Source: a bacterium
GTDB lineage: Bacteria; JAUVQV01; DATDCY01
DNA length: 40,048 nucleotides
Direction: 5' to 3'
NCBI GenBank assembly: GCA_036524115.1
Contig: DATDCY010000176.1
Span: 1-40,048 of the forward strand
This document shows, in pieces, positions 5,488-38,805 of the stretch. The notes beneath the pieces are model-generated. The model was given only the letters and a program-made list of their open reading frames with translations, was not told the DNA's origin and made no database searches. Positions within the stretch are counted from its first letter, which is position 1; each line of letters begins with the position of its first letter. The position numbers were made by a program, and so were the translations under genes.

Positions 5488-5586
5488 GGGAGCGGATGGG
5501 TCACTGGTGGGCCCCCCGGACTTCAAATCCGGTCGGCGGGCGCTAATCACGTCCGCGGTAGGTTCGATTCCTACACGCTCCCGCCA
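5488..5586 (+). tRNA. selC: tRNA-Sec (anticodon TCA)
   Basis: 99 bases including an encoded CCA (5584-5586). The anticodon stem-loop is CCGGA-CTTCAAA-TCCGG with TCA at positions 34-36, the standard selenocysteine loop. The variable arm is long: GCGGGCG pairs over 7 bp with CGTCCGC. The T arm is GTAGG-TTCGATT-CCTAC, and the D arm is GGGTC/GGCCC. Acceptor GGGAGCG pairs with CGCTCCC; the eighth pair expected of bacterial tRNA-Sec would be G with A, a mismatch. Discriminator is G. The tRNA is charged by SerRS and converted by SelA; selA, selB and selD are not in this window. Confidence 0.95.
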
Positions 5587-6686: not shown

Positions 6687-7766
6687 TCAGCGATCCCCTT
6701 CCGCGATGGCCTTCCCAAAGGCCGCCCAGAATGGGTCGACGCGCGGGTGCTCGAGCGGGCGGGCTCGTCCCCCGTCGACCAGCGTGATCCCCTCGGCCTC
6801 CGGCAGCGTCTCGCCGATGCGCGCGGCCGCGATCCCCTTCGCGGCGAGGCGCGCGAGCACCTCCTGCGTGCGGTGGCGGCGGCAGGTCAGCACGAGCGTC
6901 CCCTCGCTGATGGCGGAGAACGGGTCGATCCCGAACAGCGCGCACACCTTCGCGACCTCTTCGGGCATGGGGATCGACTCGCGCTCGATGCGCATCCCGA
7001 CCCGCGACGCGCGCGCCACCTCGTAGAGGCCGCCCCAGAGCCCGCACTCGGTCGCGTCGTGCATGGCGGTCACGCCCTCGTCGCGCACGCCGACCGACGC
7101 CGCCGTCAGCGCATCCTCGACGACGCTCATCTGCCAGAACAGCCCGTCGGCGCGCCGCGCGAACTCCTCCCCGTGCGCCGCCGCCACGCGCCGCGGGAAG
7201 GTCGCCGCGAACAGCGCGCTCGCCTCGATGGCGGGCCCTTTCGTGATCACGACGTCCTCGCCGGCGCCCGCCAGCGCCGGGGTCACGTAGCGCTCGCACG
7301 GGCCCGTGGCCATCACCGTGGCCCCGCCGATCATCGGGTAATCGCAGCCCTGGTAGCGGGCGGTGTGCCCGGCGACGACCGCGATGCCGAGCTTCTCGCA
7401 CTCCGCGGCCATGCCGCGCCAGAGGGCGACAAACTGCTCCTTGGCGATGCCGAGCGGCAGGTTCAGGTCGATCGTCATCCAGCGCGGCGCCAGCCCCGAC
7501 ACGGCCGCGTCGGAGGCGAGGATGTGCACCGCGAACCACGCGGAGCGCTCCCAGCCGTACTGCGGGACGACGAAGACGGGATCGCACGTGACCGCCATGA
7601 CCTGGCCGCCGCCGATGTCGACGACGCCGATGTCGACGCCGTGCTGCGGCGGGACGAGCACCGCGGGGTCGCGGCGCCCCAGCCGCGGGTAGATGATCTC
7701 CTCGAAGATCTCGGGCGAGATCTTGCCGATCTCGGGCAGGTCGTGACGGGACTCGTTCTGGCTCAT
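6687..7766 (-). CDS. AIR synthase (PurM/HypE-fold) family protein
   Basis: 359 residues from ATG 7766, with GGAGGGAAAG just upstream and a GATAAT -10 at 7785-7790. Layout is that of the PurM superfamily (PurM, PurL, HypE, SelD, ThiL), whose members activate a substrate with ATP. N-terminal half: CDPVF, then HILASDAAVSGLAPRW, the metal and ATP region; then GHTARYQGCDYPMIGGATVMATG. C-terminal half: TAMHDATECGLWGGLYEVA and ALFGIDPFSAISEGTLVLT. These fit a HypE-like group common in archaea and anaerobes without an assigned reaction. It lacks the glycine-rich start with Cys/Sec of SelD and the C-terminal PRIC-type end of HypE. The family's usual DATEGG is DATECG here. Substrate unknown. Confidence 0.8.
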   Translation of the reverse strand: MSQNESRHDLPEIGKISPEIFEEIIYPRLGRRDPAVLVPPQHGVDIGVVDIGGGQVMAVTCDPVFVVPQYGWERSAWFAVHILASDAAVSGLAPRWMTIDLNLPLGIAKEQFVALWRGMAAECEKLGIAVVAGHTARYQGCDYPMIGGATVMATGPCERYVTPALAGAGEDVVITKGPAIEASALFAATFPRRVAAAHGEEFARRADGLFWQMSVVEDALTAASVGVRDEGVTAMHDATECGLWGGLYEVARASRVGMRIERESIPMPEEVAKVCALFGIDPFSAISEGTLVLTCRRHRTQEVLARLAAKGIAAARIGETLPEAEGITLVDGGRARPLEHPRVDPFWAAFGKAIAEGDR

Positions 7767-7863
7767 CGCTTTCCCTCCGCGGGCATTATCCCGACAGGTT
7801 ACGGGGTCGGCCCCCCCTGGGCCCTCTCAGCCGTCCTCGACGACAGCTCCCCCAAGCAACACC

Positions 7864-37420: not shown

Positions 37421-37906
37421 ATGGCGGCCGCAACGAAGCGCCCCGCCGCGGACGACGAGCGTTTCATGCGCCTGGCCCTGCGCGAGGCGGCGCGCGCCGG
37501 CCGCTCGGGGGAGGTGCCGGTGGGCGCTGTGCTTGTCGACGGTGCCGGCCTGGTGATCGCCCGCGGGCTCAACCGGCCCGTGGCGGGCTCCGACCCGACG
37601 GCGCACGCCGAGATCGTCACCCTCAGGCGCGCCGCCCGGCGCCTCGGCAACTACCGCCTCCCCGGGACAACGCTCTACGTCACGGTCGAGCCGTGCGCGA
37701 TGTGCGCCGGCGCTCTCGTGCAGGCGCGGGTCTCACGGGTCGTCTTCGGCGCCGCCGACCCGAAGGGGGGCGCCGCGCGGACGCTGTATCGCATTCTCGA
37801 CGACCCGCGGCTGAACCACCGGGCGGAAGTCACCAGCGGAGTCCTCGAATCCGACTGCCGCGAAATGATTCAAGAATTCTTTCGTGTCCGCCGTCGCCGG
37901 TCCTGA
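37421..37906 (+). CDS. tadA: tRNA-specific adenosine deaminase TadA
   Basis: 161 residues from ATG 37421. TadA deaminates the wobble adenosine of tRNA-Arg(ACG) to inosine; the substrate tRNA is encoded 6 kb upstream. Zinc site and proton shuttle: His62 and Glu64 in AHAEIVTLRRA, and Cys92/Cys95 in VEPCAMCAGALVQARV. NYRLPGTTLYVT, VFGAADPKGGA and the C-terminal helices match the enzyme family well. An earlier ATG (37397) has no family likeness. The start has no Shine-Dalgarno sequence; a -10-like TACAGT lies 6 bases upstream. The stop overlaps the promoter of tRNA-Ser(CGA). Confidence 0.95.
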   Translation: MAAATKRPAADDERFMRLALREAARAGRSGEVPVGAVLVDGAGLVIARGLNRPVAGSDPTAHAEIVTLRRAARRLGNYRLPGTTLYVTVEPCAMCAGALVQARVSRVVFGAADPKGGAARTLYRILDDPRLNHRAEVTSGVLESDCREMIQEFFRVRRRRS

Positions 37907-37908
37907 AT

Positions 37909-37937
37909 TTGCATCCCGCCCCGCCCGCCGCTATACT
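37909..37937 (+). promoter_or_regulatory. Promoter of tRNA-Ser(CGA)
   Basis: TTGCAT (37909-37914), 17 bases, TATACT (37932-37937); start near 37944, at the first base of the tRNA. Confidence 0.7.
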
Positions 37938-37944
37938 CCGCGCC

Positions 37945-38034
37945 GGAGAGGTGTCCGAGTGGCCGAAGGAGCCGGTCTCGAAAACCGGTAGAGCCGTAAG
38001 GTTCTCGTGGGTTCAAATCCCACCCTCTCCGCCA
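37945..38034 (+). tRNA. tRNA-Ser (anticodon CGA)
   Basis: 90 bases with encoded CCA. Acceptor GGAGAGG/CCTCTCC, discriminator G; anticodon arm CCGGT-CTCGAAA-ACCGG; long variable arm; T arm GTGGG-TTCAAAT-CCCAC. Confidence 0.96.
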
Positions 38035-38098
38035 ACGCGACCCCTCCGCGGCGCGATGTTCCCGTGGGGTGGAGGTCCTGGTGCTCGGGGTCGCGTTC

Positions 38099-38379
38099 GG
38101 CGGCCGATCGGATCGGGGCGCCGTAACTGCGCGGTGGCGCTTCGCGCCGCCTTCTTCCTGCGAATCCCTCGCGGCAGCGCCCTTCGAGGTCTTTCTGTGG
38201 AATGTGCTCGGGATTCGAATTCGGGGCGCGATCGGAATCGCGCCCCGTGACTGCGCGGAGCTTCGCGCTTCTTCCGGGGCGGCCGATCCGATCGGCCGCC
38301 GTAACTGCGCGGTGCTTCGCACTTTTTCCTGGGCCGCGATCGAAATCGCGGTCCGTGACTCGCGAAGGCGCTGCGCGCC
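38099..38379. repeat. Array of 54-bp units with covarying hairpins
   Basis: Four recognisable units lie between tRNA-Ser(CGA) and tRNA-Ser(GGA). Each has a 10-bp hairpin (B arm 38223-38232, C 38278-38287, D 38331-38340; imperfect in A, 38099-38122), then CCGTRACT at 38121, 38245, 38299 and 38353, then a small TTC or TGC-loop hairpin. The spacings are 124, 54 and 54 bases. The arms differ between units but stay complementary: GGGGCGCGAT, GGCGGCCGAT and GGGCCGCGAT. A worn unit may sit between A and B. Function unknown. Confidence 0.75.
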
Positions 38380-38471
38380 GTCTCTCGTCTGTCCGTCCCG
38401 TCCGAACTCAGTCCATGGGCGCAGGCGGCAATTCCTTGCCTTATGCGTGATTTTCGTCTATTTTCGCCGGC

Positions 38472-38562
38472 GGAGAGATGTCCGAGTGGTCGAAGGAGCA
38501 CGCCTGGAGAGCGTGTAGGGTCCTAAAGGCCCTCGCGGGTTCGAATCCCGCTCTCTCCGCCA
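38472..38562 (+). tRNA. tRNA-Ser (anticodon GGA)
   Basis: 91 bases with encoded CCA. Acceptor GGAGAGA/TCTCTCC, discriminator G; anticodon arm CACGC-CTGGAGA-GCGTG; long variable arm with GGGTCC/GGCCC; T arm GCGGG-TTCGAAT-CCCGC. A weak promoter (TTGCCT 38436-38441, CTATTT 38458-38463) precedes it. Confidence 0.96.
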
Positions 38563-38639: not shown

Positions 38640-38738
38640 TGACCTGGTCCTGCGCGGCGGGAACCTGTGAACCCCGTCAGGTCCGGAAGGAAGCAGCGGT
38701 AAACAGGACCTCCCGGGTGCCGCAGGGGCGCCTGGCCT
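38640..38738 (+). ncRNA. ffs: Signal recognition particle RNA (4.5S type)
   Basis: The SRP domain IV signature GTCAGGTCCGGAAGGAAGCAGC is at 38677-38698 (shown in two overlapping parts here: GTCAGGTCCGGAAGG and AGGAAGCAGC), with the GGAA tetraloop and Ffh-binding bulge. Flanking arms pair outward: CCTGT with ACAGG, GGGA with TCCC, and CTGCG with CGCAG. The length of about 100 bases is the small bacterial type; ends are approximate. It sits about 70 bases before dnaX, a frequent arrangement. Confidence 0.93.
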
Positions 38739-38805
38739 GAACCGTCCCGCCGGTCGATGCCGGCCCGCGGTGTCCCCGGGCGCGGGACGACGACAGGAGG
38801 GGTGA

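Follow-up and report, generated by a model that had tools for sequence, protein, structure and literature searches.

A tandem cluster of two-hairpin palindromic repeats behind a tRNA-Ser gene probably belongs to a lineage-specific, REP/BIME-like family of mobile DNA

Results

An array of two-hairpin units between two tRNA-Ser genes

The DNA analyzed here, referred to as the window, comprises 40,048 nt of a contig from an uncultured bacterium (DATDCY010000176.1, assembly GCA_036524115.1). Close to its right end, a 437-nt spacer separates tRNA-Ser(CGA) from tRNA-Ser(GGA) and contains an array of four repeat units (A to D), all of which lie on the + strand and which together extend from 38035 to ~38388. 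The features of the locus are as follows, R2 being the model of the full unit:

37945-38034, + strand: tRNA-Ser(CGA), left neighbor
38035-38158, + strand: unit A, full two-stem unit (model R2, 74.5 bits over 38035-38134; tail to 38158 by comparison)
38035-38096, + strand: stem 1 of A, arms 38035-38044 (ACGCGACCCC) and 38087-38096 (GGGGTCGCGT), from the minimum free energy fold and comparison
38098-38121, + strand: stem 2 of A, imperfect
38133-38158, + strand: second small hairpin of A, 8 bp, with a TTCTTCC tail, terminator-like
38159-38275, + strand: unit B, full two-stem unit (model R2, 91 bits over 38159-38258)
38161-38217, + strand: stem 1 of B, arms 38161-38168 (CGAATCCC) and 38210-38217 (GGGATTCG)
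38223-38246, + strand: stem 2 of B, arms GGGGCGCGAT and ATCGCGCCCC
38276-38328, + strand: unit C, right half only, with stem 2 at 38278-38300, then CCGTAACTGCGCGG
38329-38388, + strand: unit D, right half only, with stem 2 at 38331-38354 (one G-T pair)
38436-38464, + strand: promoter-like TTGCCT-17-TATTTT before tRNA-Ser(GGA), outside the array (by eye, 8 of 12 positions)
38472-38562, + strand: tRNA-Ser(GGA), right neighbor

A full unit is ~120 nt long and consists, in order, of stem 1, stem 2, CCGKRACNGCGCGG and a pyrimidine-rich tail. Stem 1 has 8-10 bp and closes a ~40-nt loop ending in GTGCTC, as is the case in unit A, or in AAGCTC in one of the copies outside the window (C207, see below), while TCGG lies between this loop-end motif and stem 2 in the full copies. 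A comparison of the left flanks places stem 1 immediately 5' of stem 2 in every full copy. Unit A abuts the CCA end of tRNA-Ser(CGA). Units A and B are both full, whereas C and D consist of the right half only and are devoid of stem 1. The CCGTAACTGCGCGG of unit C is followed by a small hairpin, GTGC-TTC-GCAC, with a TTTTTCC tail, and stem 2 of unit D by CCGTGACT and then the hairpin GGCGC-TGC-GCGCC.

A preliminary description of this stretch had correctly counted and placed the four units, but it covered only their right half and missed the upstream stem in A and B. Its remaining observations were all found again, including CCGTRACT at 38121, 38245, 38299 and 38353 (spacings 124, 54 and 54), the tandem 54-bp units (TRF array 38222-38364, score 152, by far the top score among the 13 arrays of the window), the hairpin arms of B, C and D as written, the imperfect hairpin of A, and the second small hairpins. 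The anchored pattern CGATC..ATCG..CGKRACTGCGCGG is present three times in the window vs. zero times in shuffles, and no shuffle folds as well as the 437-nt spacer on either strand (z about -4). Only the two tRNAs exceeded the gathering score in an Rfam scan of the spacer, and the sub-threshold matches overlap the tRNAs.

The second small hairpins of A (38133-38151) and C (38311-38323) are terminator-like and have T-rich tails, and it is plausible that they serve as the terminator of tRNA-Ser(CGA), with the number of terminator-like sites (3 found vs. 1.3 expected by chance) being barely above expectation. The promoter-like sequence listed above (TTGCCT at 38436, TATTTT at 38459, 17-nt spacer) falls below the scan threshold.

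Pairing is conserved in both stems

In stem 2 of B, C, D and a fifth copy, E, 97.7% of the cells are paired and four pairs exhibit two-sided changes. This percentage was reached by 0 of 500 shuffles, and registers that were slid along the alignment pair at 32-45%. For the full unit, the alignment of five copies (A4) has two-sided changes in 12 of 21 pairs, seven in helix 1 and five in helix 2, whereas shuffles yield 6.2 and slid registers 0-2; its two-sided cells number 18 vs. 7.2 in shuffles. The rows of A4 were padded by hand in the loops for register, which biases the alignment somewhat in favor of the structure. An artifact of the alignment is disfavored by the slid control and by the fact that stem 1 was discovered independently. 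These comparisons with shuffles and slid registers concern five related sequences, too few for a phylogenetic test. Within these limits, the two-sided changes in both stems bear out the earlier proposal that pairing is kept beyond what a plain duplication would leave.

Among B, C, D and E, the changes of stem 2 are mostly G-C to C-G flips, whereas those of stem 1 include G-C to A-T and C-G to T-A. Between B and C, the arms show three differences on each side vs. one in the 12-nt linker, whereas the linkers of the B/D and D/E pairs are diverged as much as the arms or more. We also considered the asymmetry between G-T and A-C as a discriminator between RNA and DNA. Stem 2 of B, C, D and E contains three G-T and no A-C, the alignment of full elements has equal numbers of both (2 and 2, small numbers), and the 27-copy repeat described below has 13 G-T vs. 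12 A-C cells, most of which derive from two columns; the counts are too sparse for this criterion to decide.

Dispersed copies of the unit

A BLAST search of the genome located a second site on contig C30 (E=1.9e-8) prior to the construction of any model. Model R1, which was made from the hairpin reported in the preliminary description, added copies on contigs C207 (E=0.001) and C6 (E=0.16, weak), so the covariance model search proposed in that description did yield further covarying copies within the genome. All of the copies found by BLAST and R1 carry stem 1, even though it is not contained in R1. With model R2, the number of full copies in the genome is exactly five (74-91 bits, next match ~20 bits), namely the two in the window and those on C6, C30 and C207, to which the two half units can be added. 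The copies outside the window match over ~100 nt with 80-88 bits, and their left ends align. Their stem 1 arms are ACTCGACCGC/GCGATCTCGT in C30 (7 of 10 pairs), ACTCGACCGT/ACGGTCTCGT in C207 (8 of 10 pairs) and ACGAAATC-A-GCGAGC/GCTCGC-C-GATTTCGT in C6. Instead of a tail, the C6 copy runs into a partial second copy with a tandem period of 116.

None of the copies outside the window is near a tRNA. The C6 copy is intergenic, between surE and an inositol-monophosphatase gene, the C30 copy is located in the divergent intergenic region upstream of mpl, and the C207 copy lies antisense within an MFS transporter gene. The element consequently occurs on either strand relative to its neighbors, being antisense in the MFS gene, within a divergent promoter region, and between co-directional genes. 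Its left end, ACKCGACC, is similar in three copies and its right end is pyrimidine-rich, and the only duplication seen is an imperfect ACTC/GTGCTC one in the C30 and C207 copies.

R2 detected no copy in the sibling genome G001, which belongs to the same order and is the one other genome of the phylum that was compared, or in 143 further genomes searched with stricter filters; the genome search scored a limited number of candidates and may miss degenerate copies. The element was likewise not found among plasmids, phages and viral contigs. Weak R1 matches in G001 were rejected, as they lack the conserved loop and were not recovered by R2. Similarly, 17 exact-pattern matches from 84,980 species genomes all lie in long open frames, have mostly poor model scores, and were attributed to chance.

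A second palindromic repeat and a composite insert in an MFS gene

The same genome contains a second repeat, a long hairpin of ~89 nt with 27 dispersed copies (e.g. L114-L140) and the pattern GGGGTCCTGTCGCTGCG..ACCCCC..GTGCTC..GGGGG..CGCTTCGCGCCACCCC. This repeat covaries as well, with 96.8% of cells paired and 40 two-sided cells vs. 9.8 in shuffles in a fitted alignment. It was not found in G001, and its GGGGTCCTG core is not present within the window. Both the C30 and C207 copies of the two-hairpin unit are nested in the loop of a long-hairpin repeat (L034 and L036). In the MFS gene, the resulting composite (L014:1410-1575) lies in frame in the central loop at approximately residues 164-218, adding ~55 residues. 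Judged by match coordinates, four MFS homologs connect their two halves by a loop that is shorter by 44-57 residues, a difference of about the length of the composite, which therefore reads as an in-frame insert.

The equivalent spacer of a sibling genome lacks the element

The results for open reading frames, tRNAs and SRP RNA indicate the same order in G001 and in the window, namely tadA, tRNA-Ser(CGA), tRNA-Ser(GGA), SRP RNA and dnaX. However, the spacer between the two tRNA genes is 90 nt in G001 vs. 437 nt in the window, with ~83 nt of the latter lying beyond the array. The G001 spacer contains no match to either model and folds no better than shuffles. The simplest reading is that the element was inserted right after the CCA end in the lineage of the window; with a single relative for comparison, this difference is presumably, but not certainly, a gain there and not a loss in G001. 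The preliminary description had named two observations that would jointly count against conserved structure, namely a related genome whose spacer lacks the hairpins and the absence of further copies. Such a relative does exist, but so do further copies in the genome, and these covary.

At the same locus, the SRP RNA of the window (38641-38740) matches the small bacterial type and that at the syntenic place in G001 (L077:1186-1454) the large type. Antisense open frames run through the tRNA-Ser genes of both genomes (window 37870-38322, - strand; L077:841-1458, - strand; GWDLNPREPYGSTGF, GWDSNPRGHHCPTAF) and could easily be taken for proteins in annotation.

Discussion

We interpret the array as tandem copies of a palindromic DNA repeat that is non-autonomous, lineage-specific and REP/BIME-like in character, and not as an RNA linked to the tRNA, with a probability of roughly three in four. 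Its dispersal, nesting, intragenic copy, the relative's locus lacking the element and tandem growth all argue for a mobile repeat of this kind. Of the three guesses made in the preliminary description, "REP-like element" is the one that agrees with the dispersed, covarying and nested copies. Presumably, the repeat spreads by copying at the DNA level, with its hairpins being exposed as single-stranded DNA at replication and potentially serving as the substrate of a recombination or transposition enzyme. It would have inserted right next to the 3' CCA of tRNA-Ser(CGA) and then grown locally by tandem duplication, for which the anatomy suggests two full units followed by two half units. The complementarity of the arms could be maintained either because the hairpin is the recognized form or because template switching restores one arm on the basis of the other. 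Transcription of tRNA-Ser(CGA) is probably also terminated at the T-tailed hairpins of A and C, whereas tRNA-Ser(GGA) may rely upon its own promoter-like sequence. Several points weigh against a mobile repeat. Y1_Tnp (PF01797) was not found in this genome (assembly ~95% complete), although the search detected two in G001 and was positive in 5 of 14 control genomes. Furthermore, the copy number is low, neither a target-site duplication nor a terminal inverted repeat is cleanly developed, and the comparison involves a single relative.

Among known repeats, the tagged REP superfamilies are characterized by an unpaired GTAG/CGTC tag at the foot of the palindrome, a palindrome of 20-40 bp, a high copy number and a RAYT (PMC3733652). 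Like REPs with RAYT/TnpA-REP (PMC3733652, PMC8266576), the present element consists of palindromes dispersed in one lineage, mostly intergenic (window, C6 and C30 copies) and in part intragenic (C207), with possible roles as RNA hairpins or terminators. Since REPs inside genes are already known (PMC3733652), the MFS copy has a precedent. Unlike REPs, the element comprises two stem-loops within ~120 nt and is limited to five full copies plus two half units; in the aligned copies, the feet of stem 2 are CGTT-CGG and CCG-KRAC, without GTAG or CGTC, and no Y1 transposase was found in the genome. Because it departs from REPs in tag, size, copy number and RAYT, we do not call it a REP but a REP/BIME-like variant. 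BIMEs (PMC2817692) share with it the composite tandem of full and half units and the way in which it nests with another palindromic repeat beside a common module, here GTGCTC. However, BIME units alternate in orientation, whereas those of the window all have the same orientation.

MITE-type elements are short, non-autonomous and non-coding, with terminal inverted repeats and a target-site duplication. The present element is similarly short, lacks coding capacity, and is found both between genes and in frame within a gene, but neither terminal inverted repeats nor a target-site duplication could be recognized convincingly. The RPE of Rickettsia are intragenic palindromic repeats and resemble the MFS copy in that a palindromic repeat is inserted in frame in a protein gene; they differ in sequence, and the MFS insert is a composite, a repeat within a repeat. 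Integron attC sites, which have RYYYAAC ... GTTRRRY core sites and are accompanied by gene cassettes and an integrase, were rejected by eye, as AAC is preceded by CCGT or CCGG with GTT on the left, and no cassettes lie between the units.

The covariation itself could be explained differently. One possibility, which we regard as doubtful though it is the strongest of the alternatives, is that it is purely mutational, with template switching (quasipalindrome correction) at replication keeping functionless palindromes perfect. This process is documented to produce multi-base compensatory changes and perfect stems (PMC8794818), and both the excess of arm over linker changes between B and C and the flips of stem 2, which lack a G-U intermediate, are as it would predict. 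However, stem 1 would have to be corrected across a ~40-nt loop and its changes extend to other base-pair classes, while the B/D and D/E linkers are no better conserved than the arms. As template switching concerns how the pairing is kept, it is compatible with a mobile repeat, and the two likelihoods are not exclusive. It is rather improbable that RNA-level selection on the tRNA-Ser(CGA) transcript is responsible, with the array being a structured non-coding RNA or an element for tRNA processing or attenuation. The position immediately behind the tRNA, the strong fold (z about -4 on either strand), the two-sided changes in both stems and the G-T pairs without A-C in stem 2 are all consistent with an RNA, but copies occur in both orientations relative to their neighbors, no Rfam family matches, and the 2 and 2 or 13 and 12 counts of G-T and A-C reveal no RNA-type strand preference, small as these numbers are. 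The tRNA-linked function that had been proposed earlier is further contradicted by the location of the other copies away from tRNAs, with one even residing in a coding gene, and by the sibling's 90-nt spacer.

A plain cluster of tandem terminators of local origin, with its likeness to the other copies being coincidental, would account for the T-tailed hairpins in A and C and for the position of the cluster, which lies precisely in the interval from the tRNA 3' end to the promoter-like sequence that follows. Yet, matches of ~100 nt at 80-88 bits with aligned left ends, together with a C30 copy found by BLAST before any model, make such a coincidence very improbable. The chance that the array is an 18-codon coding repeat (54 = 3 x 18), as had also been raised, is close to nil; there are open frames on both strands (e.g. 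38069-38518, + strand, and 38013-38501, - strand), but they continue into the tRNA-Ser genes, overlapping open frames abound throughout this GC-rich window, the changes between units conserve pairing, and the A to B spacing of 124 is not a multiple of 3.

Returning to the mobile palindromic repeat, a bolder version of it, which we consider unlikely, would be a novel type of miniature mobile DNA, in which a two-hairpin unit is recognized by its shape, not its sequence, and moved without a RAYT by another enzyme, while nesting in a palindromic repeat, landing in frame and multiplying as a terminator behind a tRNA 3' end. In either case, a structurally maintained family of palindromic repeats is added in a barely sampled phylum, for which two genomes were compared, and between its copies within one genome it is the pairing and not the sequence that is conserved. 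The family could serve as a small test case for distinguishing hairpin selection from template switching and for determining what moves palindromes without a RAYT.

Two minor observations were made in addition. The window also encodes a tRNA-Sec gene and a TPP riboswitch (5488-5586 and 7755-7863, - strand). Lastly, two ~45-nt direct repeats that are 80% alike and share a CGCGCSCYGTGACTTCCTGAT core lie at ~1255-1420 of L002, upstream of a ferredoxin/nitroreductase-like gene, and could possibly be operator sites.
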